Virus record (IMG/VR): IMGVR_UViG_3300010373_000403
Location: 1 to 43,617 of that record
Direction: 5' to 3' (one strand)
Source of the DNA: a virus
Length of the DNA: 43,617 nt
Both the position numbers and the translations under genes were made by a program. Below the pieces are notes generated by a model. That model searched no databases and had not been told where the DNA came from. It saw only the letters and a program-made list of their open reading frames with translations. This document shows positions 4,242 to 15,235 of the stretch, in pieces (the first letter of the stretch is position 1; each line of letters opens with the position of its first letter).

Positions 4242-4549
4242 GATGCGTTCCTTCGTGCGGCGCGGCGACGGAGATGAGCTTCCGTCTCAGCCTTCTTACA
4301 TGCGGCGCATGGATGCTCGCCACGGCGCCGGTGGGCCATTGCTTGCGCTTCGGAACCGCCGCGAGCGCAGATCGCCCAATCCAGTTCCGGGAGTTGGATT
4401 TCGCCCCGTTTTACGCGTTCACGCCACCGTCGATGATTCTCACGGCGCCTCTCAGGGTTCCGTTCACGCCATCCCCGGGCACGCTCTCTCATAATCTCCC
4501 GGTTGCGCAGGTAATAGGCACGCGAGTACTCACTGCGGTCGACGCTCAT
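4238..4549 (-). CDS. Arg-rich early protein with C-terminal CxxC (103 residues)
   Basis: The ATG at 4549 has GAGGG about 7 bases upstream and overlaps the stop of the membrane microprotein. The N-terminal half is very basic and Tyr/Arg-rich (YSRAYYLRNREIMRERARGW), a module I associate with small phage HNH or DNA-binding proteins. The C-terminus has HPCAACKKAETEAHLRRRAA. No HNH catalytic core is visible, so I call it only a probable DNA-binding protein. Confidence 0.68.
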   Translation of the reverse strand: MSVDRSEYSRAYYLRNREIMRERARGWRERNPERRRENHRRWRERVKRGEIQLPELDWAICARGGSEAQAMAHRRRGEHPCAACKKAETEAHLRRRAARRNAS

Positions 4550-4626: not shown

Positions 4627-5465
4627 GATGCAGCCACCAGCGCGAGTTGCCCGGTGCCGCCAAGCCTCTTGTGTAGCTCAGCCAAGCCCTTCGGTGTGAT
4701 CCGCACAGTGGGTTCGCCCGCGACCATCTCGCCTCGGCCTTGATGCCAAAATGGCCGACCAACCTTCTCGGCCAGGCGTCCGGTGTCGAGCTGTGTCCGG
4801 TATGCCTTCCACCGACCTTCGCGGCGGAACACCCAGCCGAGCCCGGACATGAACTGGAACAGCTTGCGTTCCTTGATGTCGATCGCCGGATCCCGTGAGA
4901 GCACCTTCGCGGCGTCCGAGACGGCGTAGTCACCCGTAGACTCAGCCAGCTCGTTCCACGCCGACGCTGGCGGTGTCAGTTCAACCACTGCGGCTTTGAG
5001 CGCCTCGATGCGATTGGCGCTGATTGTGAGTGCTCGGTGGATCAGCTCGTCATCTGACATTGGTATTTCCAGCGGATTGACCTCCGCCTCGCGCGTCTTG
5101 ACCGCGAAGTAATGCTGCGCGGCGGATACCTCCGCTTTACGCGGGTCGCCGTTCATCGCGATTAGGTACGCGGCGTATCGGGTGACGAGGTAGTCGGTTC
5201 CCGGTCGACCGCCAGGGTTTTTATCGGCGCCGATAAAAACCTGCGCAGCACCCGATTTCGCAGTGATCCGGAAAAGGATGCGAACGTTGAAGCCCTCATT
5301 GTGTGCAGTGTTCTTCGCGCGTTCGATGACACCCTCGAACTTCTGCCACGACTCGTAGCCGAGCTGTCCCATGAGCCAGCGCGCCGACCAGCGGTCTTCG
5401 CCGCCCTGGGGGCACGGGACACGGCCGGCGTCGAATGGAGAGGCGGCGGGGGTGATGTCGCTCAT
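4623..5465 (-). CDS. Phage antirepressor (N-terminal phage regulatory domain plus KilA-C type C-terminus)
   Basis: 280 residues starting MSDITPAASPFD at 5465, ATGA-coupled to the HTH gene. The N-terminal ~130 residues (EDRWSARWLMGQLGYESWQK, then GGRPGTDYLVTRYAAYLIAM) match the DinD/BRO-like N-terminal domain of phage antirepressors. The C-terminal ~110 residues (ELTPPASAWNELAE, AKVLSRDPAIDIKERKLFQF, VRITPKGLAELHKRL) match the KilAC/ANT domain. In the family these bind DNA or repressor and promote lytic growth. A 26-bp perfect palindrome lies inside the gene at 5216-5241. Confidence 0.88.
   Translation of the reverse strand: MSDITPAASPFDAGRVPCPQGGEDRWSARWLMGQLGYESWQKFEGVIERAKNTAHNEGFNVRILFRITAKSGAAQVFIGADKNPGGRPGTDYLVTRYAAYLIAMNGDPRKAEVSAAQHYFAVKTREAEVNPLEIPMSDDELIHRALTISANRIEALKAAVVELTPPASAWNELAESTGDYAVSDAAKVLSRDPAIDIKERKLFQFMSGLGWVFRREGRWKAYRTQLDTGRLAEKVGRPFWHQGRGEMVAGEPTVRITPKGLAELHKRLGGTGQLALVAAS
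5216..5241. repeat. 26-bp perfect palindrome inside the antirepressor gene
   Basis: The left half is GGTTTTTATCGGC and the right half its exact reverse complement, with no spacer. Its centre half-site TTATCGGC is the same octamer that recurs before the small plus-strand genes. It encodes part of QVFIGADKNP, so some symmetry may be chance, but 26 perfect bases is unlikely. Possible operator or cruciform. Confidence 0.6.
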
Positions 5466-5692: not shown

Positions 5693-5731
5693 GACGTGTG
5701 AATCGCGTAGGTCACGGTTTTCTCACACGGC

Positions 5732-5767
5732 TTGCGCGATACGCACGACTTATGCACAATCTGACTA
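5732..5767 (+). promoter_or_regulatory. Putative repressor promoter, leaderless
   Basis: TTGCGC (5732-5737) and CACAAT (5755-5760) are separated by 17 bases. The start would fall at about 5767, the A of the repressor ATG, giving a leaderless mRNA. That fits the absence of a ribosome site. Consensus match is only moderate. Confidence 0.4.
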
Positions 5768-6093
5768 TGACGACACACGCGACCCACTGGGTGCCGGATA
5801 CTGACAATTTCAGCGTCCGGCTCGTTCTCGTCCGTCACGCGATGGGCTGGAACGCCAAAGAAGCCGCCTTGGCCTGCGGGATCAGCCCGCAGTCATGGCG
5901 CGAATGGGAACTGTCGGGGCGTCGGCCCCGCGACTACGAGGGCGTCTGCAAACAGATCGCGGTGCGCACAGGCTGCAACCTGATCTGGCTAATGGCGGGC
6001 GACCCTAACCCCATCGGCGGGGCTCCCGCATTCGGTGCGCTCCCCCGGGAGGACTCGAACCTCCAACCCTTCGATCACAAATTTGCGGCGTGA
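5767..6093 (+). CDS. rep: Immunity repressor with attP inside its 3' end
   Basis: 108 residues starting MTTHATHWVPDTDNF. An XRE-type HTH spans about residues 15-75 (FSVRLVLVRHAMGWNAKEAA, CGISPQSWREWE, then NLIWLMAGDPNP). An alternative start at 5698 or 5752 would lengthen it. The last ~20 codons run antisense through a tRNA 3'-half sequence and end DHKFAA. The Ala-Ala terminus resembles ssrA-type ClpXP tags. In BPs-type phages the viral form of the repressor is degraded and integration replaces the tail with a stable one. Divergent from the HTH gene and upstream of the integrase, exactly as in that system. Confidence 0.85.
   Translation: MTTHATHWVPDTDNFSVRLVLVRHAMGWNAKEAALACGISPQSWREWELSGRRPRDYEGVCKQIAVRTGCNLIWLMAGDPNPIGGAPAFGALPREDSNLQPFDHKFAA
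6039..6081. other. Putative attP core (tRNA 3'-half sequence, antisense to rep)
   Basis: Read on the minus strand the segment is a tRNA 3' portion: anticodon-loop-like 6081-6075, stem 6074-6070, variable loop 6069-6065, a perfect T-arm GGAGG-TTCGAGT-CCTCC (6064-6048) and a 7-base acceptor strand (6047-6041). No 5' half is present, so it is not a tRNA gene but the usual identity segment of a phage integrating into a tRNA 3' end. The isoacceptor cannot be told. It lies in the last codons of rep. Confidence 0.8.
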
Positions 6094-6269: not shown

Positions 6270-7133
6270 ATGAGCCAATTACTACACACCCTTTCGTATA
6301 AACTTCCCCGCGAATGGGAAGACGCGCTCGACGGTTGGCTAACACGGTTGATGGCCGCAGGCACCTCACCAGCGACGCGACGCACCCGCCGGGCACACAT
6401 CCGCTCCATCGCCCGGCAGATCGGCGCCCAAAGCCCACGGGACGTGACGACCGAAGAACTGCTTGTGATTCTCGGTCGACCACAGCTGTCTATTGAACAC
6501 CGCCGCGGACTACGCGCCAGCCTGGGATCGTTCTACCGTTACTGCATCGACTCGGGAGCTATCCACTCCGATCCCACCCTGACGTTGCCCAACGTGCGCG
6601 CCGCCTCCGCCGCCCCCAAACCGGCCACCGATGCGATCTGGCGGCAAATCCTCGACACAGCCGATCAACGCACTCGACTAATGGCGCGCCTAGCCTGCGA
6701 GGCGGGACTGCGCCGCGCCGAAGTCGCCTGTGTGCACTCTGATGACCTTGTCAACGGGATTGACGGCGCCGAACTCATCGTGCACGGCAAAGGAAACAAA
6801 CAACGTGTTGTGCCAATCACCGTGACACTCGCAACCGAGATCGCCAAAGCCTCCCCATTCGGTGGATACCTGTTCCCCGGGAAAATCGACGGTCACATCA
6901 GCCCGGATCGCGTCGGGCATCTCGTCAGCAAAGTCATGCCCAAAGGGTGGTCCATGCACAAACTGCGTCACCGCTTCGCGACGCGCGGTTACGCCGGAAC
7001 TGGCAACCTGCGCGCGGTCCAGGAAGCACTCGGCCATGCTTCAGTCGCGACGACGCAACGCTACACAGCGGTTGCCTCCCGGGAAGTCCGAGCGGTCACC
7101 GAAGCTGCCGCCCAGCCGGTTGGCGCTGCGTAA
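6270..7133 (+). CDS. int: Tyrosine integrase
   Basis: 287 residues. SAM-like core-binding domain about 15-100. The catalytic domain has R148 (GLRRAE), K174 (HGKGNKQR), H230-xx-R233 (HKLRHR), H256 (LGH) and the Tyr nucleophile Y265 (TTQRYTAV). Short relative to lambda Int, so an N-terminal arm-binding domain is small or absent. The chain ends QPVGAA: an Ala-Ala terminus like the ssrA-type tag reported for integrases of integration-dependent immunity phages. ATG at 6270, with AGGA about 9 bases upstream. Downstream of rep and attP on the same strand. Confidence 0.95.
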   Translation: MSQLLHTLSYKLPREWEDALDGWLTRLMAAGTSPATRRTRRAHIRSIARQIGAQSPRDVTTEELLVILGRPQLSIEHRRGLRASLGSFYRYCIDSGAIHSDPTLTLPNVRAASAAPKPATDAIWRQILDTADQRTRLMARLACEAGLRRAEVACVHSDDLVNGIDGAELIVHGKGNKQRVVPITVTLATEIAKASPFGGYLFPGKIDGHISPDRVGHLVSKVMPKGWSMHKLRHRFATRGYAGTGNLRAVQEALGHASVATTQRYTAVASREVRAVTEAAAQPVGAA

Positions 7134-7185: not shown

Positions 7186-7482
7186 GTGCCAATGCAACTA
7201 GGTGATCACATCAGTTTCGAGAAGGACGGCGTCGTGCGCACCGTCCGTGTCGAGTCGGTTCGCTACGCCAGCGGTTCACCGGCCGTCTACCGGCAGCTGA
7301 ATCGCTGGCAGTCATTCATTCGGCGCCTGACACCACGTCGCTGGCGTCCGACGCTGATGGTGCGCGAGGCCCAGCCGTCATCAATCACGATCAACGGCGA
7401 CGGGGATCAGTTCGGCAAGACCATCGCCCAACTCGAGCAGATGAAGGGCGGCTGGAACCGGATATTGGACAACCGGACATGA
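7186..7482 (+). CDS. Hypothetical protein after int (98 residues)
   Basis: GTG start with GGAGGG 5 bases upstream; an ATG six bases later has worse spacing. The N-terminus looks like a small beta domain (GDHISFEKDGVVRTVRVESV), followed by a basic Trp-rich middle (RRLTPRRWRPTL) and a helical end. No family recognised. It overlaps the DUF732 gene by ATGA, so the two are probably made together and may act together at the membrane. Confidence 0.7.
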   Translation: MPMQLGDHISFEKDGVVRTVRVESVRYASGSPAVYRQLNRWQSFIRRLTPRRWRPTLMVREAQPSSITINGDGDQFGKTIAQLEQMKGGWNRILDNRT

Positions 7483-8141
7483 CCGATGACACCGTTGCTG
7501 GTCCGGCGAATGATGCGACGGAGTTTCTGCCGCCGGTGACTCAGGCGGTTCCGGAGTTGGCGTGGTCTCAGGATGAGACCGTGGAGGTCCTCTATCCGTC
7601 GTGGCGGGAGACATACGGGACCGCGGCGGTGATCACGGTGTGCTGTCTGGTGGCGGCGTTCGTGATCGCGATCGTCGGCTGGGTGCTGCTGCGGGAGGAT
7701 GATCCGGTGCCGCCACTGTCGCCGGGCGACGCGACTCCTGTGCTCGCCCCGGCGCCGACATCGTCGCCGCTTCCACGCCCCACGCAGGAGCCGGACGTGT
7801 CGCGGCCGGTGAAGACGATGGCGCCGAACCCCGTAGCCGCTCCCCCGCCCGCGCCGACGGTGACCGTGACACCCACGCCGATCGCCGCGGCACCGTCTCG
7901 CCCGTCGGCGGCCGATCTCGACGAACGCTACCTCTCGGCCATGACCGCCGGCGGGTTGCGCATCACCGACGTGCAGACCGTCATCACCGGCGCGCACAAC
8001 GTGTGTCGATTCCTCGCGACCGGCCACACCGAACCGCAGGCTGTGTCGGTGGCGATGGGCAACAACGCAAGCCTGACCGAGGCGAACGCGCACACCCTCG
8101 TCGACTCGGCCATCCAGGTGTATTGCCCGGACGCGGGCTGA
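7479..8141 (+). CDS. Single-pass membrane protein with C-terminal DUF732 domain
   Basis: 220 residues. Cytoplasmic N-terminus, one transmembrane helix at about 49-72 (TAAVITVCCLVAAFVIAIVG), a long Pro/Ala/Thr-rich external linker (~75-142), then a DUF732-like domain (DERYLSAMTAGGLRI, HNVCRFLATGH, HTLVDSAIQVYCP) with the two conserved Cys expected to form a disulfide. DUF732 is a mycobacterial exported domain, which points to the host. Its position after int and rep suggests expression in lysogens (lysogenic conversion); that is inference. Confidence 0.82.
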   Translation: MTDDTVAGPANDATEFLPPVTQAVPELAWSQDETVEVLYPSWRETYGTAAVITVCCLVAAFVIAIVGWVLLREDDPVPPLSPGDATPVLAPAPTSSPLPRPTQEPDVSRPVKTMAPNPVAAPPPAPTVTVTPTPIAAAPSRPSAADLDERYLSAMTAGGLRITDVQTVITGAHNVCRFLATGHTEPQAVSVAMGNNASLTEANAHTLVDSAIQVYCPDAG

Positions 8142-8144
8142 CGA

Positions 8145-8152
8145 TTATCGGC
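8145..8152 (+). repeat. Start-associated element (core TTATCGGC), copy 1
   Basis: Core octamer just after the DUF732 stop and before the ribosome site (GGAGGG) of the next small gene. The flanks are less conserved than in later copies. Confidence 0.6.
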
Positions 8153-8166
8153 GCTTGGAGGGATGG

Positions 8167-8355
8167 ATGGACGTGATACCTGACGAAGTGTGGCGAAACG
8201 CGGTCGCCGGACCGACGCAGCCCGTTACGTCACCAGCGGAATGCTGGCATTCCGGACCAGTCCGAACAGACATCGCGCGGATCGGAGACGCCGTTATCGC
8301 CAGTACATCATGCGTGATGTGCGGCCGCATTCTCGGCACTGGCAGCGATGGTTAG
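8167..8355 (+). CDS. Small hypothetical protein (62 residues)
   Basis: ATG at 8167 with GGAGGG close upstream. The product (begins MDVIPDEVWRNAVAG) has a Cys-Trp-His in the middle (AECWHSG) and a CVMCG pair near the end, suggesting metal or redox chemistry. An upstream TTG would add four residues. No family recognised. First of a run of tiny genes separated by the TTATCGGC element. Confidence 0.6.
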   Translation: MDVIPDEVWRNAVAGPTQPVTSPAECWHSGPVRTDIARIGDAVIASTSCVMCGRILGTGSDG

Positions 8356-8375
8356 GCCAACGTAAGACGAGAGGA

Positions 8376-8383
8376 TTATCAGC
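8376..8383 (+). repeat. Variant element TTATCAGC directly before an ATG
   Basis: Sits between GAGG and the start codon at 8384, preceded by the ACGTAAGAC string seen at other junctions. One-base variant of the core. Confidence 0.45.
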
Positions 8384-8530
8384 ATGAGCGTTACGGACGA
8401 GTTCGGCAACACCGAGCAGGAGATTCGTCTCGTCGCTATCGCGGCTCATGCGCGCGGCGACTATGTGGCGGAACGAATCGCTCTCGACCGGCTGGCGCTG
8501 ATGGAACGCGACGCCGAGCGGCTTACATAA
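8384..8530 (+). CDS. 48-residue helical microprotein
   Basis: ATG with GAGG nine bases upstream. The product is charged and helical (QEIRLVAIAAHARGDYVAER, then ALMERDAERLT). It ends Leu-Thr-stop, like several neighbours, because the 3' end of each gene belongs to the repeated junction. Below usual gene-calling size. Confidence 0.65.
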   Translation: MSVTDEFGNTEQEIRLVAIAAHARGDYVAERIALDRLALMERDAERLT

Positions 8531-8549
8531 ATCCTCAGGTTATCGGCAA
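8530..8549 (+). repeat. Start-associated element, type B copy
   Basis: Starts at the last base of the preceding TAA; core at 8540-8547. The left flank CCTCAGG matches the CCCCAGG of the other type B copies. A degenerate ATATCGGTA follows at 8561-8569 before the AGGGAG ribosome site. Confidence 0.75.
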
Positions 8550-8581
8550 GCAGCGCCGCTATATCGGTAGAGGGAGCAAAC

Positions 8582-8800
8582 ATGGATGAGCAATTAGACC
8601 AGATCGGTGCGGTACTTCGGCACCGCGAGAAGCACGGGCGGCATCTGCATCACCGGAACTGCATCCACAACCTGCCACCCGAAAAACAGGTGGCCATGCG
8701 CGGTCGAAGCGTCGAATGGTGGACGACGGTTATCGGCCCGTTGCCCGAGCAGATCACGCCTGATCAGTGGGAGTGCGAGCCCCCGATTTGCGATTCGTAG
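8582..8800 (+). CDS. His-rich small protein (72 residues)
   Basis: ATG preceded by AGGGAG at good spacing. The N-terminal half is rich in His and Arg (LRHREKHGRHLHHRNCIHNL), followed by a Trp pair (VEWWTTVIG) and a short C-terminal segment with two Cys (WECEPPICDS). The His/Cys content suggests metal binding, but no known motif fits. Function unknown. Confidence 0.68.
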   Translation: MDEQLDQIGAVLRHREKHGRHLHHRNCIHNLPPEKQVAMRGRSVEWWTTVIGPLPEQITPDQWECEPPICDS

Positions 8801-8807
8801 CGCCCAC

Positions 8808-8815
8808 TTATCGGC
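8808..8815 (+). repeat. Start-associated element core
   Basis: TTATCGGC directly before AGGAG and the start at 8826. Left flank only partly like the others (CGCCCAC). Confidence 0.6.
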
Positions 8816-8825
8816 ACTTAGGAGA

Positions 8826-9032
8826 ATGGTGAAAGTTCTACTGCGGCACGTGCCGAGCACGGGCACGGAGTACGTCGATCTTGCTGGCATCCCACAGGTT
8901 GACGATGAGATCCACTGGCCCGACCGCATTCTCCGCGTGCATTCAGTGAAATGGTTTCCGCTGCCAGGTGGTACGCCATTAGTCGGCGACGATTCGCCCG
9001 TGGCTTGCCTCTACGTGTCGAACCTGACGTAA
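8826..9032 (+). CDS. Small hypothetical protein (68 residues)
   Basis: The ATG lies one base after AGGAG, which is tight; the GTG at 8829 has better spacing and may be the true start. The product looks all-beta (KVLLRHVPSTGTEYVDLAG, RILRVHSVKWFPL, VACLYVSNLT). It ends -NLT at an ACGTAAGAC junction. No family recognised. Confidence 0.65.
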   Translation: MVKVLLRHVPSTGTEYVDLAGIPQVDDEIHWPDRILRVHSVKWFPLPGGTPLVGDDSPVACLYVSNLT

Positions 9033-9037
9033 GACAA

Positions 9038-9160
9038 ATGATGGCGATGTGCTCGAACCCGTCGAACGCCGTGACCTGCACTAATAGATACAAGCATTCG
9101 GATAACCGCAGGTCAGGACCGGCGATGTGCTCGAACCCGTCGCCGACGTCCTGCACCTGA
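9038..9160 (+). CDS. Possible 40-residue protein with internal duplication
   Basis: Opens MMAMCSNPSNAVTC and repeats AMCSNPS near its end (AMCSNPSPTSCT). At DNA level a 22-bp sequence is identical at 9043-9064 and 9121-9142. No ribosome site is visible and only six bases separate it from the upstream stop, so it may be a relic made by duplication, or two minigenes each starting MCSNPS. Confidence 0.4.
   Translation: MMAMCSNPSNAVTCTNRYKHSDNRRSGPAMCSNPSPTSCT
9043..9142 (+). repeat. Two identical 22-bp direct repeats
   Basis: Copies at 9043-9064 and 9121-9142, 78 bp apart, both reading Met-Cys-Ser-Asn-Pro in the same frame. This suggests a local duplication within the small-gene cluster. Confidence 0.85.
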
Positions 9161-9165
9161 CGTAA

Positions 9166-9185
9166 AGCCCCCAGGTTATCGGCAA
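9166..9185 (+). repeat. Start-associated element, type B copy
   Basis: Left flank AGCCCCCAGG then the core TTATCGGC (9176-9183) then AA. Identical over 20 bases to the copy at 10230-10249. Confidence 0.85.
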
Positions 9186-9187
9186 AG

Positions 9188-9208
9188 CACCGCAACGTTA
9201 TCGGCGAA
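9188..9208 (+). repeat. Start-associated element, type A copy
   Basis: Flank CACCGCAACG then core (9198-9205) then GAA, four bases after a type B copy. The tandem pair precedes the gene at 9218. Confidence 0.85.
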
Positions 9209-9217
9209 GGAGAAACG

Positions 9218-9400
9218 ATGGACGAGCCATATTGGCGCAGACTTGGACTAGTTCGTGGACTGCGCTGGCTACCGCAGCGGATGGCGTTGAACTACCTGCA
9301 CAAGCACATGGGCGCACACCTAGATGACAACTGTTCGATGTCAGGCAAGGTGCTCGTGCGCGATGGCGTTCGACTACGGGTAGAGGTTACTCACGCCTGA
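9218..9400 (+). CDS. Basic small protein (60 residues)
   Basis: ATG preceded by AAGGAG with good spacing. The chain is Arg/Leu/His-rich (EPYWRRLGLVRGLRWLPQRM, NYLHKHMGAHL) with one Cys and a beta C-terminus (KVLVRDGVRLRVEV). Could bind nucleic acid or membrane; no family recognised. Confidence 0.68.
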   Translation: MDEPYWRRLGLVRGLRWLPQRMALNYLHKHMGAHLDDNCSMSGKVLVRDGVRLRVEVTHA

Positions 9401-9415
9401 CAGATGTGATTGGAG

Positions 9416-9423
9416 TTATCAAC
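9416..9423 (+). repeat. Variant element TTATCAAC before an ATG
   Basis: Lies between GGAG and the start at 9425, in the same arrangement as the variant at 8376. Confidence 0.4.
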
Positions 9424-9424
9424 C

Positions 9425-9661
9425 ATGAGCGAGCTTGCAGAGCGCATAGCCGCGATCATCAGCCGCGCACAGCAGTTCGGGGGCATGGAATCGACCAGCC
9501 CAGAATTCATCGCGGACGACATCGTGAGCGAACTTGGCCTAGACCGTGTCGCGTATCAGTTATCCGTCATGGATAAGCGGCACAGGGGCACCAAAAGCAG
9601 TCCTCATTGCTTGATCTGCGCGCGCAAAAACTGCTACCACATGGGCGCTGGGTTGACGTAA
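9425..9661 (+). CDS. Small protein with C-terminal Cys/His cluster (78 residues)
   Basis: ATG with GGAG nine bases upstream. The helical N-terminal part (ELAERIAAIISRAQQFGG, FIADDIVSELGL) is followed by a C-terminal metal-site-like cluster (PHCLICARKNCYHMG). It ends -GLT at a type A junction. The helical part resembles the reconstructed product of the gene at 9848, so the two may be paralogues (weak). Confidence 0.68.
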   Translation: MSELAERIAAIISRAQQFGGMESTSPEFIADDIVSELGLDRVAYQLSVMDKRHRGTKSSPHCLICARKNCYHMGAGLT

Positions 9662-9682
9662 GACCGCAACCTTATCGGCGAA
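9662..9682 (+). repeat. Start-associated element, type A copy
   Basis: GACCGCAACC then core (9672-9679) then GAA, directly after an ACGTAA stop. One base different in the left flank from the copy at 9974. Confidence 0.85.
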
Positions 9683-9691
9683 AGAGAATGG

Positions 9692-9826
9692 ATGAGAATC
9701 GACTGGGAGAAGTGGGATCAACCCACGTGGCCGATGCTGATCGGCCTGGTGATCGGCATGTCGCCTGCGGTGGCGCTGATCGTTTGGGCCGCCACGTTCC
9801 TGCCCGCAACGGGCTGCTCGGGTTGA
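9692..9826 (+). CDS. 44-residue membrane microprotein
   Basis: ATG with AAAGAG five bases upstream. The product (begins MRIDWEKWDQPTW) has a clear transmembrane helix (MLIGLVIGMSPAVALIVWAA) and ends with a Cys. An overlapping frame starting at 9688 gives a less coherent hydrophilic product, so this frame is preferred. Its TGA is part of the TGACGTAAG junction string. Confidence 0.65.
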   Translation: MRIDWEKWDQPTWPMLIGLVIGMSPAVALIVWAATFLPATGCSG

Positions 9827-9847
9827 CGTAAGGCAGGAAAGAGCGAC

Positions 9848-9973
9848 ATGGAAAAGCTGAATGCCATCGAAGTACTGTGCCGCCACGCGCTCGACATGCT
9901 CGAAAACGACGGCTAATACCACGCCGAGGACTTGGCCGACTAGATACTCGTCATCATCCATGGCCTTACATAA
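9848..9973 (+). pseudogene. Small gene with two in-frame stop codons
   Basis: ATG at 9848 with AGGAAAGAG upstream encodes 22 residues (MEKLNAIEVLCRHALDMLEN, then Asp-Gly) to TAA at 9914-9916. The same frame continues as coherent protein (YHAEDLAD) to TAG at 9941-9943, then ILVIIHGLT to TAA at 9971-9973, the usual Leu-Thr-stop junction. Each internal stop is one base from a Glu codon. Either a recently broken 41-residue gene, a 22-residue microprotein, or readthrough. I favour decay. Confidence 0.6.
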
Positions 9974-9994
9974 GACCGCAACGTTATCGGCGAA
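9974..9994 (+). repeat. Start-associated element, type A copy
   Basis: GACCGCAACG then core (9984-9991) then GAA, immediately after the terminal TAA of the broken gene. This supports 9973 as the ancestral gene end. Confidence 0.85.
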
Positions 9995-10007
9995 CAAGAG
10001 GAGCGAG

Positions 10008-10229
10008 ATGGGTGTCTTTGGTCCCGTCAACACTTGCTGCGGTGTGACCGCATCCGTAGGGCACGACTTGTATTGCGAAAACCATCAAGAGTTACCACCG
10101 ATGACCGACCAGAGCAGCCAGCAGCACTACATGCTGCCCGGCAGTCACGAGCGCGCGGGCGGCCCAGAATGCCGCTGCGGGTGGGGCTGGGACAGGTGGA
10201 ACGACCGATGCCTGTCACAGGCGACATAA
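10008..10229 (+). CDS. Cys-rich small protein (73 residues)
   Basis: ATG preceded by AGAGGAGC. The product has Cys at two clusters: NTCCGVTAS with a Cys/His pair (LYCENHQE), and a C-terminal PECRCGWGWDRWNDRC. The CxC plus Trp-rich tail suggests a small metal-binding or disulfide-rich domain. It ends -QAT at an ACATAA junction with a type B element. Function unknown. Confidence 0.68.
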   Translation: MGVFGPVNTCCGVTASVGHDLYCENHQELPPMTDQSSQQHYMLPGSHERAGGPECRCGWGWDRWNDRCLSQAT

Positions 10230-10249
10230 AGCCCCCAGGTTATCGGCAA
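10230..10249 (+). repeat. Start-associated element, type B copy
   Basis: Same 20 bases as the copy at 9166-9185 (core 10240-10247), located between the stop at 10229 and the ribosome site of the next gene. Confidence 0.85.
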
Positions 10250-10265
10250 GAAAGAGAGGACGGCC

Positions 10266-10460
10266 ATGCGTGATTGGCAACTGCGCGACCAGCTAGTGCT
10301 CTGGGGCACGGATCGTGAGATACCGGGCCAACGAGCCGTCATTAAGCAGTACGGACGCGACTACCACGTGGAGCACTTCGTTGGGCAGACCCACTATCGC
10401 AAGGAATCTCGTCCGACCCTCGTCGGTGCGATCCGGCTTGCCGAAAAATGGCTTACGTAA
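10266..10460 (+). CDS. Small hypothetical protein (64 residues)
   Basis: ATG with GAGAGGA upstream. Begins MRDWQLRDQLVLWGTDREIP; the middle resembles a small beta domain (AVIKQYGRDYHVEHFVG) with a C-terminal helix (TLVGAIRLAEKWLT). It ends -WLT at a TTACGTAA junction. The following 79 bp (10461-10539) contain a degenerate copy of the element (CTCGGCGA) and the next ribosome site. Confidence 0.68.
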   Translation: MRDWQLRDQLVLWGTDREIPGQRAVIKQYGRDYHVEHFVGQTHYRKESRPTLVGAIRLAEKWLT

Positions 10461-10539
10461 GGCGATCTTCTCGGCGATTTCGTTACGCGTCCGCTTCCAC
10501 CGTCCTACGCTCGAAGTCATCTTGGGGATTGGAGTCGAA

Positions 10540-10685: not shown

Positions 10686-11273
10686 TCAGTGTGGGTTGAC
10701 GGTTGCGTCGGGGTTGGGGTTGTCCGGGTTGATGATCGGCCCGGTCGGTGCGCCTGGTGTGGGCGCTGGCGGCAGCGGTGGCATGACGGGCTCAGGCACA
10801 TCTGGTAGCGGCGGTGCCCCTGGCGGTGGTGCTGGCATCTCATCGGCACCGATCGGTACCGGCCGCGGCGCCAACGTTTTACACGGACGCGGATGGATCT
10901 CGTTCTTCCACGCCCCCGGCGGATTCGGCGCTTCGGCCATCGAGAAGTCCGGGCACGCCCAGTAGGAGATGCCGCGCAGCACACCCGCAGGTATCCCCAC
11001 AGAGAGGGAGGCGTTGAACATCATGAACGTCACCCCGGCGGTTGCGGTGACCTGCCACATGCCGCCGCCGTAGAGGGTGGTGTGTCGGGATCCGTTGATT
11101 TCGATGGGGAATTGGCAGGCGTAGTCGTATTCGCCCATCGCGGCGCCGAACGTTCCGACAGCCGGATAGTCGCAGCCGCCGGGGCCAGGGACCTCTCCAC
11201 CAATGTCAGCATGCGCGAGCGGCGCACAGAACAGCGCTGCCACGGTGAACGCGAGGATGATGACGTGTTTCAT
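10686..11273 (-). CDS. Secreted proline-rich protein at the end of the late operon
   Basis: 195 residues, ATGA-coupled to the upstream gene. A clear signal peptide (MKHVIILAFTVAALFCAPLAHA, cleavage after AHA) is followed by a Cys-containing globular part (DIGGEVPGPGGCDYPAVG, SRHTTLYGGGMWQV, ISYWACPDF) and a Pro-rich tail (~145-195). It resembles mycobacterial exported proteins. Placement with lysis genes suggests expression late, or leakage in lysogens. A longer reading to 11483 runs through the upstream gene and is rejected. Confidence 0.75.
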   Translation of the reverse strand: MKHVIILAFTVAALFCAPLAHADIGGEVPGPGGCDYPAVGTFGAAMGEYDYACQFPIEINGSRHTTLYGGGMWQVTATAGVTFMMFNASLSVGIPAGVLRGISYWACPDFSMAEAPNPPGAWKNEIHPRPCKTLAPRPVPIGADEMPAPPPGAPPLPDVPEPVMPPLPPAPTPGAPTGPIINPDNPNPDATVNPH

Positions 11274-11503
11274 GTGTTCTCGTCTTCGACTGCCGCCGCG
11301 AGGACGGACAGAAGGTCGTATCGCTTCGGCCAGATGTGGATGAGATGCCCGGCGATGTAGACGACCGTGCCGCCCCACAGCAACGGATGGCTTTTGGTGT
11401 AGCGGGCTGAGGCATCGGACAGCATTTCGCCGCGCGGGCAGGCGATGTCCCATGCGATGATTCCGCCGGCCATCGCTAGCCACGCGCGATCCGCTGCTCT
11501 CAT
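11270..11503 (-). CDS. Membrane protein of the lysis region (77 residues)
   Basis: ATG at 11503 (a GTG lies immediately before at 11506). It has two hydrophobic segments (AWLAMAGGIIAWDIA and PLLWGGTVVYIAGHLIHIW) around a conserved-looking CPRGEMLSDAS loop. I recognise this type from mycobacteriophage lysis cassettes, where it is a conserved membrane protein of unknown role. Possible accessory holin. Confidence 0.72.
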   Translation of the reverse strand: MRAADRAWLAMAGGIIAWDIACPRGEMLSDASARYTKSHPLLWGGTVVYIAGHLIHIWPKRYDLLSVLAAAVEDENT

Positions 11504-11515
11504 CACAGCACCTAT

Positions 11516-12001
11516 CTACAGGTCAGCCACTAACTCGGGCGGCGCTTCAGGGCAGTCGTTGCCGGGCCAGTTGTCGTTGACCCAACGGATCACGCGGCGC
11601 AGATATGCGATCGCGACGCGATAATTCTTCTCGGATTCGGCGACCTTGAGTTCGGCGGCGGCGTTGCGGATCTCGGCGTCATCCAAGCGCTTCTCGACGT
11701 CGCCAAGTCGGTCGGATAGGTGCTCGTTCCACTTCTGCATTCCCTGGGTGATCTTCGCCCATTCGCTGCTGGCCTGTTCACGCTCGGCGACGACCGCCTT
11801 GTGCATCTCTGCTCGGGCGCCTTCCTCGGCGGCCTCTGCGGAATCCACGGCAGCGCTCGCCGCTGTGGCTTGCGCGTCGGCGGCTTTGTCTGCGGCGGCG
11901 GCGGTGCGGTGCTTGGCGCGGCGATCGACCAGAGCCGCCCACACGACGGCGACGGCACCCGCGACCGGTCCCAGGTAGGGACCGGCATTCCCCCAGTTCA
12001 C
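11516..12001 (-). CDS. Membrane-anchored coiled-coil protein (161 residues), DUF2746-like
   Basis: GTG start overlapping the holin-like TGA (GTGA). One N-terminal transmembrane helix (GPVAGAVAVVWAALVD), then a long Ala/Glu-rich coiled coil to about residue 130 (DRLGDVEKRLDDAEIRNAAA), ending with a Trp/Pro acidic tail. Mycobacteriophages often encode such a protein next to the holin. A spanin-like or holin-regulator role is inferred, not shown. Confidence 0.72.
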   Translation of the reverse strand: MNWGNAGPYLGPVAGAVAVVWAALVDRRAKHRTAAAADKAADAQATAASAAVDSAEAAEEGARAEMHKAVVAEREQASSEWAKITQGMQKWNEHLSDRLGDVEKRLDDAEIRNAAAELKVAESEKNYRVAIAYLRRVIRWVNDNWPGNDCPEAPPELVADL

Positions 12002-12282
12002 GTCACCGGGGTCGACTTAGGGGACGCCCTGCGCTTGGCAGCCACTCGCGGCAGAAATGATGCGGTGCCGTTGTTCTGCCGCAGCGACATCACCGCCAAC
12101 AGGACGGCGTAGACCGCTGCGTAGCCAGCCGAGGACAGCACGCACGTCCAGGACACGTCCTGCAGGGTTTTCGTCGCGCTGCCGGTGAGGACACTCATCG
12201 CCGCGGTGGCTGCGGCGATCGCAGCGTTCTCCCCGGCGTGTTCAGCCCAGACGATGCCCGGCATATGCCAATTGATGTGCAC
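11998..12282 (-). CDS. Putative holin (94 residues)
   Basis: The GTG at 12282 has AAAGGG six bases upstream and is preferred to the GTG at 12297. It has two hydrophobic helices (NAAIAAATAAMSVLTG and AGYAAVYAVLLAVMSL) separated by a polar turn, and a basic C-terminal tail (RVAAKRRA). This is the class II/III layout of r1t-like phage holins. Position just after lysin A and lysin B supports the call. Confidence 0.75.
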   Translation of the reverse strand: MHINWHMPGIVWAEHAGENAAIAAATAAMSVLTGSATKTLQDVSWTCVLSSAGYAAVYAVLLAVMSLRQNNGTASFLPRVAAKRRASPKSTPVT

Positions 12283-12321
12283 GATAATCCCTTTCACGGG
12301 GAAACGAGCGGCACGAAACGT

Positions 12322-12531
12322 TTAGACGGCGTTCAGCGCGTTCTGCAACACATGCAACGCCTTGTCGGCCTCGTCGATCGCTTTGACCGCGGCCTGCACT
12401 TCAGCGCCGGCGCCGGGGATCGCGCCACCGAACCTCGCTGCGAAGTCGGCGTACTTGGTCACGAGGTCGGCCAGGTGCACGGCTTCGTTGACTGCGGCAT
12501 CGACCTCGGCCCTGATTGCTGAGATGTCCAT
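12322..12531 (-). CDS. Small helical protein between lysin B and holin (69 residues)
   Basis: ATG with AAAGGA upstream. The chain is almost entirely amphipathic helix (ISAIRAEVDAAVNEAVHLAD, VQAAVKAIDEADKALHVLQN) with a Gly/Pro hinge (GGAIPGAGAE). No family recognised; likely a helical hairpin that oligomerises. Confidence 0.68.
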   Translation of the reverse strand: MDISAIRAEVDAAVNEAVHLADLVTKYADFAARFGGAIPGAGAEVQAAVKAIDEADKALHVLQNALNAV

Positions 12532-12544
12532 GGTGATTCCTTTC

Positions 12545-13492
12545 CTAGATGCCTAACTGGTGAGGTAGTGAGTTGCCGAGCGCGAGGGCGTCGCTGATCG
12601 CGGCGATCATCCCGTCTTGGTACTGAAAATGGCCCGCATTTTGGCCCGCGCCGAAGAACTCAGCAGTGTTCACGAGTGCCTCGACGTCGCCGATCGGTTT
12701 ACCCAGGAGTGTCGCCAGTTCGATGATGTCGACGAAATTGGGCTGCATGATGATGCGGAAGAACAGGTACTCGACGCTGCCTACCGATGGCAGTGACGTC
12801 CAGGGTGAGCTGCCCACGGGTGCGTCGGCGTAGAGGTCGTTGGGGTTGACGAATGAGTAAATCAGGAACTTTCCGTCTGGCGCCTTGAGGTTCGCCTGCT
12901 CGACGGTGTAATCCAGTGGTCCACCTATACCCCCGGTGATCTGACCGTCGACCTTGCCGGGCATCGGCATCCCCGCGAGTTCGTTGCCGTGGGCGATGCC
13001 TGGGCAGCGGAACGGATCGCCGAACGCGTAGATCCGGTAGATGTATGGCAGCAGATAGTGGAAGGGCGCGCCGTCCGGCAGGACATCGAGGAAGAAGAAC
13101 TGCAGCGCCGCCATCACGCCTTGCGACCACGCCGAAATGATCTGCGCCAAACCTTCATACGTGCCGTGTTGCTTGTAGTAGCGCATGGCATGTGCGCCCG
13201 TCTGGATGCCGAGGTTGGCTCGGCCGGTCTGCACGCTCGGCCACATCGGCACCGTCTTGGCCGGGTAGCCGACACCTGGGGATTCCCACAGACCGTCAGC
13301 AACGTTGGCCAGGCCGCCCACAACGCCGGAAGCAAAGCCGCACCAGTAGCCGTTGCCGTCGTCGGTGATGAAGCTTGGTGGATTCGGTGCTCCCGGATAG
13401 ACGGTGCCTTCGACGGCGAAGATCGCGCCAGCCGGGCTATAGACCTTCCCGTTTGCTTGCGCGCGGACGTTGACGAATAGGCTACTTGTCAC
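12545..13492 (-). CDS. lysB: Lysin B (mycolyl-arabinogalactan esterase)
   Basis: 315 residues, alpha/beta hydrolase. The nucleophile elbow is AWSQG with S123. The acid is likely D219 in NPNDLYADAP and the histidine H288 in AGHFQYQ. Other family-like strings are YAFGDPFRCPG and GYPAKTVPMWPSVQTG. Lysin B cuts the ester bond joining mycolic acids to arabinogalactan at the end of lysis. The GTG start overlaps the upstream gene by 11 bp. Not a PE/PPE protein, because the gene context is a phage lysis cassette. Confidence 0.9.
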   Translation of the reverse strand: MTSSLFVNVRAQANGKVYSPAGAIFAVEGTVYPGAPNPPSFITDDGNGYWCGFASGVVGGLANVADGLWESPGVGYPAKTVPMWPSVQTGRANLGIQTGAHAMRYYKQHGTYEGLAQIISAWSQGVMAALQFFFLDVLPDGAPFHYLLPYIYRIYAFGDPFRCPGIAHGNELAGMPMPGKVDGQITGGIGGPLDYTVEQANLKAPDGKFLIYSFVNPNDLYADAPVGSSPWTSLPSVGSVEYLFFRIIMQPNFVDIIELATLLGKPIGDVEALVNTAEFFGAGQNAGHFQYQDGMIAAISDALALGNSLPHQLGI

Positions 13493-13865
13493 GGTGCGCT
13501 TCTAGCGCCTGCTGCGTCGCACTGGGCTTCGGAGGCTCACCCTTGTAGTTGACGCTCAGTGGCTCGTCGTCATTGATGTGAATGTTCTGGGACAGCACCC
13601 ATTTCGTGCATGTACGCAACATGTCGAGAGCGTCGTAGTCGTTGCCGTCCTGCAGCTTTGCCGTGCGATCCAGGTTCTTGTCGAGGCTGGTGATGGAGTC
13701 CCAGCGTGAGGACGTGACGTTGCTGACCTCTGGATAGGCGTAGTCGATTGAACGCCCGAACATGTGGGAGTCATAGAAGCGCGCGACCAGCGCCTCGGGG
13801 AGGGCTGGCGTTCCGGGGCCGCTGTTGCCGTTGGCGAGATTGTTGACGTCCTGATCTGCGGTCAC
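13482..13865 (-). CDS. Hypothetical protein between lysin A and lysin B (127 residues)
   Basis: GTG start overlapping the lysin A TGA (GTGA). Hydrophilic, Asn/Asp-rich (DQDVNNLANGNSGPGT, TSLDKNLDRTAKLQDGNDYD). A central segment has RFYDSHMFGRSIDYAYPEVS, and the C-terminus is a short basic helix. No domain recognised. Coupling to lysin A suggests a lysis-related or regulatory part. Confidence 0.7.
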   Translation of the reverse strand: MTADQDVNNLANGNSGPGTPALPEALVARFYDSHMFGRSIDYAYPEVSNVTSSRWDSITSLDKNLDRTAKLQDGNDYDALDMLRTCTKWVLSQNIHINDDEPLSVNYKGEPPKPSATQQALEAHRDK

Positions 13866-15235
13866 GATTTGCTCCCTTGAATGAAAGACTCAACCTCACG
13901 CTTAAACGCCGCCAACCCGTCACGCACGGTGAGTTCCTGGCCTTGCGAGTTGGTGCCCATGGAGGATTCCGGCCCCCAAATGTCGGGTCCTAGCTGAGTC
14001 AGGATGTTAACCACGGCTGCGGCGATGCCCATGACCGCGTTGTACATATCTGCTTGCTGTTGATCGGTGAGCGCCATGAATGCGCCTCCTCCTGAAGGTG
14101 GTTGCGGTGGTGCGGGCTGGTATTGTCCGTAGTCGTCGGTGTGTGCTTCGTTGATGTCGCATTGGACGCCGTCGATGGTTTGGTAGCCAAGGTTGTTGCG
14201 CTGCATGATATTTACGGCGCTCGTGATGGAATTCCCAGACCAAGCTTCTGTCTGCCAGATGTATTTGACGCCGACGGCGCCCTGGGCGCGGGTGCAGATC
14301 CAGTAGTCGCCGTAGAGCCCGACGTAGTCCATCCCGCCGAGCACTGATGCCGCGCCCTGTAGGTATTGCTCGACGGGAGTGTCTTGGTTGGGCGCTTCGT
14401 CGAAGTCGCAGGAGAAGTAGATGGCGGGGTTGTGTGGTGCGCCGGGAAGGCTGCGCACGTAGTTGAGTGCGACCTGGGCGTCGGCCACGCCTGCGCTGTA
14501 GCCGCCGAGCATGAAGTCGGCGGTGGTCTCCCAGTTGAAGACGACCGCGATCCCATTGGCTGTCAAGTCAGCGAATTCGTCTGGGAGCAACTGCTTTCCC
14601 GGCAGACTTGAGCCTCCATCGCTCAAGTATCGGCAGACGAATGCTGCGCCCGCGGCTTTGAGTGATGCACCGCTGATCCTGCCGCCCGCATAGTCATAGC
14701 CGCGCGGGTAACCCATCGCTTGCCTCCGTGGTGTGTCTTCGATGATCGGGCCGTCGTAGACGTACCAGTCGTTCCAGTACGTGCTGCTGATGCCGGTGAT
14801 TTCGGGCGGTTCAGTACACACGCCGTAGTCTCCGTTGGATTCCATGTCCCAGCCGTCGATCTGGCAGGCCATGTGGCTGTTGGGTCCGCCGCCGCCGTGC
14901 ATGATGCACACCTTCAGCGGGTAGTCACCGTTGACCAGATCGTCTTTGGTGGTGCGCCGGAAACCTGGCAGCGGGCCGGGGAATGTCTCGGTGGAGAACA
15001 GACGCGACCACGACATGCCCGGGCCGTTGATCGCTGCGCCCAAGACGATGCCGCACAGGCCGGAGCAGTCGGCGCCGACACCAAAGTTGTAGGGGTCGAA
15101 CACGCCTGCGTACTCGTATTCGTCGCCGGGGCCTTCGTCGATGTCGGCCGATTGTAGGAGCGGTTGGGCGTCGGTGGTGAGGCGGTCGAGAAAGACGCGC
15201 TGAGCGAAATTTATGTTGGAACGCAGGAGGGTCAC
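13862..15235 (-). CDS. lysA: Lysin A endolysin: cysteine peptidase plus DUF1906 glycosidase-like domain
   Basis: 457 residues, GTG start with GAGG upstream. The N-terminal domain (~1-165) is NlpC/P60-like: catalytic Cys57 in GADCSGLCG, His121 in NSHMACQ and a further polar residue in DMESNGDYGV. The central domain (~177-385) matches DUF1906 (Rv2525c-like glycoside hydrolase): RGYDYAGGRISGASLKAAG, AIYFSCDFDEAP, GLYGDYWIC. The C-terminal ~65 residues are helical. Cleaves peptidoglycan at lysis. Domain order is typical of modular mycobacteriophage LysA. Confidence 0.88.
   Translation of the reverse strand: MTLLRSNINFAQRVFLDRLTTDAQPLLQSADIDEGPGDEYEYAGVFDPYNFGVGADCSGLCGIVLGAAINGPGMSWSRLFSTETFPGPLPGFRRTTKDDLVNGDYPLKVCIMHGGGGPNSHMACQIDGWDMESNGDYGVCTEPPEITGISSTYWNDWYVYDGPIIEDTPRRQAMGYPRGYDYAGGRISGASLKAAGAAFVCRYLSDGGSSLPGKQLLPDEFADLTANGIAVVFNWETTADFMLGGYSAGVADAQVALNYVRSLPGAPHNPAIYFSCDFDEAPNQDTPVEQYLQGAASVLGGMDYVGLYGDYWICTRAQGAVGVKYIWQTEAWSGNSITSAVNIMQRNNLGYQTIDGVQCDINEAHTDDYGQYQPAPPQPPSGGGAFMALTDQQQADMYNAVMGIAAAVVNILTQLGPDIWGPESSMGTNSQGQELTVRDGLAAFKREVESFIQGSKS

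Follow-up and report, generated by a model that had tools for sequence, protein, structure and literature searches.

What is the role of a short repeat that stands, again and again, between the smallest genes of a phage? The question is raised by the window analysed here, a 43.6-kb IMG/VR contig (IMGVR_UViG_3300010373_000403) from a temperate actinophage, in which an octamer, TTATCGGC, recurs through an array of tiny genes at 8.1-10.5 kb. We found that this octamer is one half of a larger bipartite motif, A-N-CGC-N4-TTATCGGY, hereafter the element, which other phages share. From sequence comparisons we consider it an evenly balanced proposition that ANCGC-N4-TTATCGGY is a start-associated expression signal upstream of the Shine-Dalgarno (SD) sequence which, with a partner at the stop end, would bound swappable single-gene units in mycobacterial temperate phages and a plasmid.

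The window contains 14 copies of the octamer where 1.03 would be expected, a count reached in 0 of 100 shuffles. The original prediction, made from the window alone, had described eight exact octamers within 2.1 kb; there are nine on the plus strand of 8145-10247 (at 8145, 8540, 8730, 8808, 9176, 9198, 9672, 9984 and 10240), eight of them between genes and one, at 8730, within a 72-aa open reading frame (ORF). Near copies are found at 8376 (TTATCAGC), ~9416 (TTATCAAC) and 10468 (TTCTCGGC). Two subtypes had been distinguished. Type A (ACCGCAAC-S-TTATCGGC-GAA) is present at 9198, 9672 and 9984 as described, and type B (CCCCAGG-TTATCGGC-AA) at 9176 and 10240, the copy at 8540 being only similar (CCTCAGG). 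A third class had been overlooked: in class D, GAGAGGATTATCRGCATG, found at 8376 and in contig G038, the core lies between the SD sequence and the ATG.

The extended motif comes from an alignment of 38 start-linked copies from 11 replicons, namely the window, eight other IMG/VR contigs, the phage MalagasyRose and the plasmid pM018; the copy in phage MooMoo was left out. The conserved positions are CGC at -7 to -5 and TTATCGGY, separated by a near-random 4-nt spacer (0.2-0.4 bits per base). Among 20 copies not chosen by CGC, 14 have CGC exactly at -7 (P 9e-18), and CGC-N4-TTATCGG matches the window four times against 0.03 expected. Profiles built with a record left out recover single-strand clusters in that record, with 11 matches in the window against 1.1 in shuffles and 10 in contig G035 against 0.2. 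Read backwards, the motif gave no matches; read forwards it gave 34, including copies that served to find some of the records. The shuffles, the reversed motif and the leave-one-out profiles together rule out chance or base composition as its source. Relatives by integrase or repressor that lack arrays showed background only, with a best cmsearch E of 0.14 and 16 weak profile matches in 391 kb. Because invariant blocks stand at a fixed distance around a free spacer, we infer a selected recognition site rather than recent copying. An RNA hairpin or known RNA family was dropped as a candidate, since the consensus structure of the element has 0 pairs and Rfam returned no relevant match for it.

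The element is carried by the window, the eight other contigs, the Mycobacterium smegmatis phages MalagasyRose and MooMoo, and the M. intracellulare plasmid pM018. Strict long patterns at first gave scattered single matches in IMG/VR, and the relatives emerged with looser, shorter ones: gapped and start-side patterns led to contigs G027, G032, G035, G036, G037 and G038, with G034 among the first matches. Contig G020 was found through its integrase (52% identical) rather than through the element, and still carries the element in the same place as the window, downstream of the integrase and DUF732 genes. BLAST returned a 30/30 match before gp79 of MalagasyRose, a 35/36 match in pM018 and a copy at the gp36-gp35 junction of MooMoo, where the order is a stop, the element at the gp35 start, gp35, and an end of the TTGACGTAAGGC type. 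Plasmid pM018 (NZ_AP024256.1; L099, L101) is circular, 51 kb long, and has genes for portal, capsid, tail, holin, recombinase and replication functions; it is closely related to G027 and probably a phage-plasmid. A further contig (L102/G039) has one copy. A strict-pattern scan of GTDB gave one single-copy match, in a deltaproteobacterial metagenome-assembled genome, which we took as chance. The search for the motif in other phages that the original prediction had suggested gave start-linked copies, co-oriented with their genes, in several of them.

The genes downstream of the element in the contigs are small, and those of the nine contigs show no mutual homology at E<0.01. A blastp search at E<1e-6, a threshold that could miss a small or diverged regulator, detected no protein family common to all carriers; the most widespread family, a structural protein, occurs in 8 of 11. 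A phage-encoded partner protein was set aside on this basis. Two further features of these records were noted. Contig G038 (L092) has four near-identical minus-strand copies, at 4333, 4717, 5139 and 5733, of a 32-bp class B variant, TTGACGTAAATCCCCCAAGTTAACGGCAAGG, with TTAACGGC where TTATCGGC would stand. The MalagasyRose record (L100) has an annotated tRNA-Pyl (cta), reader of the TAG stop codon, at 445-529.

Across the 38 aligned copies, the core lies a median of 17 nt from the start codon and usually upstream of the SD sequence, with a median gap of 7 nt. It is always oriented with the gene, even in G034, which has copies on both strands, and the copies lie outside the structural genes wherever the context was checked. 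One copy per gene is what would be expected if each element were a promoter yielding one transcript per small gene, as supposed for the extended start-associated sequence (ESAS) of cluster K mycobacteriophages, a 17-bp imperfect inverted repeat with SigA-like hexamers just upstream (PMC11373665); contig L036 also has an ESAS-like repeat. We nevertheless judge a promoter to be very improbable. The alignment carries hardly any information at -22 to -16, the place of a -35 box; as a -10 box of the TANNNT form, TTATCGG is missing its last T; and the gaps are too short. Neither SigA promoters nor terminators were found above shuffles, the single promoter-like site in 6.1 kb equalling the shuffled count, and the ESAS traits sought (information at -22 to -16, a consensus fold, an excess of promoters) are absent from the element.

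The ends of the genes also tend to be marked. Genes with the 5' element often close with (Y)TGACRTAAGG, a stop-associated sequence that is read in two frames: across the relatives YTGACRTAAGG supplies a TAA stop (ACR TAA) or, in the other frame, a TGA stop (TGA CRTAA), and at 8360 it comes just behind a TAG stop. ACRTAA or TGACRTA ends 16 of 36 genes with a 5' element, versus 8 of 385 control ORFs (P 1e-13). The original prediction had noted that gene ends share ACGTAAG or ACATAA, so that many products end in Leu-Thr. ACRTAA does recur, but a conserved Leu-Thr C-terminus was rejected, as one and the same sequence yields a stop in either of two frames. Given this two-frame use and the position after TAG at 8360, we read ACRTAA as a nucleotide element. 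Its link to the 5' element means that what is conserved is the gene junction, made up of a start half and a stop half. A stronger version, which we entertain only tentatively, is a two-ended adapter, in which matching start and stop signals would convert any small gene into a plug-in cassette that is both expressed and exchanged whole; recognition by a host factor would allow unrelated mycobacterial temperate phages, and a plasmid with phage genes, to share the adapter.

The features of the window, from the repressor to the end of the array, are as follows.

5698-6093, rightward: repressor gene.
6270-7133, rightward: tyrosine integrase gene; nearest named phages ~49%.
7479-8141, rightward: DUF732 gene.
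8139-8169, plus strand: junction 1; TGA stop of the DUF732 gene, core TTATCGGC at 8145-8152, SD, ATG at 8167 (62-aa ORF).
8360-8386, plus strand: junction 2, class D (a class also in G038); ACGTAAGAC, GAGAGG as SD, TTATCAGC at 8376-8383 abutting the ATG at 8384.
8525-8584, plus strand: junction 3, class B-like; ACATAA stop, CCTCAGG, core at 8540-8547, a second partial copy TATATCGGTA, SD, ATG at 8582.
8730-8737, plus strand: exact octamer inside the 72-aa ORF at 8582-8800, probably not functional.
8798-8831, plus strand: junction 4, canonical; TAG stop, CGC at 8801-8803, core at 8808-8815, SD, start at 8826 or 8829.
9025-9032, plus strand: stop-associated TGACGTAA closing a 68-aa ORF, with no core behind it.
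9158-9220, plus strand: junction 5; TGACGTAA, class B core at 9176-9183, canonical copy (CGC at 9191-9193, core at 9198-9205), SD, ATG at 9218.
9412-9427, plus strand: degenerate class D-like junction; GGAG, TTATCAAC, ATG at 9425.
9654-9694, plus strand: junction 6, canonical; TTG ACG TAA stop, CGC at 9665-9667, core at 9672-9679, start at 9688 or 9692.
9824-9831, plus strand: stop-associated TGACGTAA behind a 44-aa ORF, with no core; a TGA-frame stop if the start is 9692.
9966-10010, plus strand: junction 7, canonical; ACATAA, CGC at 9977-9979, core at 9984-9991, SD, ATG at 10008.
10224-10268, plus strand: junction 8, class B; ACATAA stop, CCCCCAGG, core at 10240-10247, SD, ATG at 10266.
10454-10475, plus strand: terminal degenerate copy; TACGTAAGG, then TTCTCGGC, with no co-directional gene behind.

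Junction 7 is the best match to the cross-phage profile (25.4 bits, E 9e-6, from a model that includes the window copies; leave-one-out score 31.9). The array, which lies behind the repressor, integrase and DUF732 genes, is convergent with the structural genes. Terminase, portal and protease are encoded leftward, and the portal is ~59% identical to those of Gordonia phages and of mycobacteriophages such as Tortellini and BigNuz. None of the small genes tested matched Pfam, and only one matched PHROGs. The C-terminal half of the product of 10008-10229 is ~60% identical to a protein encoded near the right end of many mycobacteriophages (for example Shauna1 gp91), where genes of this type overlap their neighbours and leave no gap able to hold the element. 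Two stretches are apparently decayed units of the array: 9848-9973, a frame with two in-frame stops (MEKLNAIEVLCRHALDMLENDG*YHAEDLAD*ILVIIHGLT*), and 9033-9165, with a 22-bp duplication (GGCGATGTGCTCGAACCCGTCG). Both keep an ACRTAA end with an element behind it. At the contig end, a 12-bp unit, GCGCCGCCCACT, is repeated in tandem ~31 times over positions 1-369; it may be a coding repeat or an end effect of the assembly.

Whether small genes are swapped exactly at these elements, as the original prediction asked, can be followed in pM018 and G027, which are largely colinear at ~79-99% identity. G027 has a 112-aa gene that pM018 lacks, bounded exactly by two TTATCGGTACTCAACAGGAG copies of the element, and the empty site in pM018 keeps one copy; at a second breakpoint, homology restarts directly after TTATCGGCTCTC. 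However, at least six other breakpoints between the two are not at elements. Exchange at junctions happens but is not the rule. In lambdoid phages, short conserved boundary sequences at gene borders may help modules recombine; unlike these, the sequences described here occupy a fixed place before the SD sequence and at the stop, around single small genes. We think it rather unlikely that the elements are, in the first place, recombination boundaries, that is, short homologies or a recombinase site spread by aiding the gain and loss of cassettes, with effects on expression incidental. Such boundaries would account for the clean single-gene indel and the additional breakpoint, for stop-associated ends that travel with the element, and for degenerate reading frames in the window that are still flanked by junctions. 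They fit less well with the breakpoints elsewhere, with a near-random spacer amid invariant blocks, which favours selected recognition over recent copying, and with an orientation that everywhere follows the gene.

A different comparison is with the stoperators of cluster A phages, short asymmetric intergenic sites, oriented with transcription and bound by the phage's own repressor (PMC3203893, PMC4351075). The elements might likewise be DNA-binding sites, asymmetric intergenic operators on which a repressor halts transcription of the small genes. They too are asymmetric, follow transcription and sit in short intergenic gaps of non-structural regions; the centres of CGC and TTATCGG would lie about one helical turn apart; and class D and the terminal copies are readily accommodated. 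We still consider operators unlikely, since no protein was found in all carriers, a tight link to the SD sequence is not predicted, and a record whose repressor is 79% identical to that of the window has no TTATCGGC, which also makes a binding site for the window's own repressor unlikely. Stoperators differ from the element in sequence and are not tied to starts, and the stoperator GGTGGMTGTCAAG is not in excess in the window (2 matches versus 1.87 expected). Separately, an antirepressor-like gene of the window contains a perfect 26-bp palindrome, GGTTTTTATCGGCGCCGATAAAAACC (5216-5241), with the octamer on both strands. No TTATCGGC occurs in the phage whose repressor is most similar and which also has an antirepressor match, so the palindrome is not conserved there.

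The original prediction had likened the repeat to the start-associated sequence (SAS) of cluster K, an asymmetric repeat of temperate mycobacteriophages that is oriented with its gene and precedes the starts of unrelated genes within the non-structural half of the genome (PMC3203893). The likeness holds in that the element is asymmetric, gene-oriented and non-structural, stands before the starts of unrelated small genes, and recurs in other phages, but it is not the cluster K SAS. That sequence, GGGATAGGAGCCC, includes the SD sequence, lies 3-7 bp from the start and is almost confined to one cluster (PMC3203893), whereas the element lies further upstream and mostly before the SD sequence, whose core AGGAG falls outside it (in class D the SD sequence precedes the core). 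The element also occurs in phages whose gene contents differ, and it goes together with a stop-associated sequence. With up to 2 mismatches, the 13-bp GGGATAGGAGCCC has two matches in the window against 0.92 expected, neither in the array. The closest known match in placement is an 18-bp repeat of Microbacterium cluster EC, TAGaCTCTaGGTgTaAgC, which has one orientation and stands before a putative ribosome site, 21-30 bp from the start (PMC7302621). Its sequence is unrelated, it was described for lytic phages, and no stop-end partner is described there; it has 0 matches in the window at up to 3 mismatches, which covers only close copies, as PMC7302621 allows up to 8. For these repeats and the SAS of Microbacterium cluster EF (PMC7302621), as for that of cluster K (PMC3203893), functions are not established. 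The wordings 'start-associated', 'repeated sequence' and 'conserved sequence' are all absent from a prophage survey of Mycobacterium in which MalagasyRose is included (PMC10654092). By its sequence and placement, then, the element appears to work like a start-associated sequence but belongs to no described family, the cluster K, cluster EC and stoperator sequences not being enriched; new relative to the cited literature are the stop-end partner and the sharing across phages.

Other repeats of this general kind were seen in passing. Contig L032 (IMGVR_UViG_3300036790_000126), whose integrase is 82% identical to that of the window, has five minus-strand copies of a different start-associated repeat, AGTGGGTAGGNAAACRRTGAKS, at 12424-13680, four of them directly at ATG or GTG starts of small genes. 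Contig L036 (IMGVR_UViG_3300050821_002954) has five copies of a 53-nt repeat at 11007-14188 and a further, related copy at 8824. The repeat reads TTGACATGTCCCCACAATGGGCGTACAGTCAGTGTTATG (TTGACA-N17-TACAGT) on the reverse strand, with an ATG closely behind, and these look like repeated leaderless promoters with an internal operator.

How might a start-associated expression signal of this sort work? We propose that a gene with its two half-junctions would form a self-contained unit under local control of expression, exerted most probably as translation begins or on the mRNA near the SD sequence. The factor acting on the element would be supplied by the host, as suggested by the lack of a protein family found in all carriers, and recombination between copies at such similar junctions could add or remove single genes. 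Starts with an element are less structured, and their SD sequences more accessible, than 51 control starts, a difference that may just reflect lower G+C (0.53 vs 0.61), with controls drawn from one phage. Along with that caveat, several observations count against the proposal. The core lies between the SD sequence and the ATG in three class D copies (window 8376, G038 29588 and G038 30824), no co-directional gene start follows the copies at G020 10070, G032 10626 and window 10468, and the core-to-start distance spans 0-37 nt, with class D at 0; together these weaken a purely translational role. To them may be added the reach of the protein search, the overlap between the 34-versus-0 reversed control and the copies used to find records, and a conservation of TTATCGG that is inflated because TTATCGG was the search query.

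The role of the start-associated repeats of actinophages has been open since 2011 (PMC3203893, PMC11373665). Known examples are tied to single clusters; the element described here occurs across phages among which no shared gene was detected, a pattern suggestive of recognition by the host. In practice it can serve to locate small accessory genes and to test them; MooMoo and MalagasyRose, both cultivated phages of M. smegmatis, have a single copy each and lend themselves to simple reporter tests. The shared junctions suggest that these phages have a common way to switch on small genes and to gain or lose them singly.

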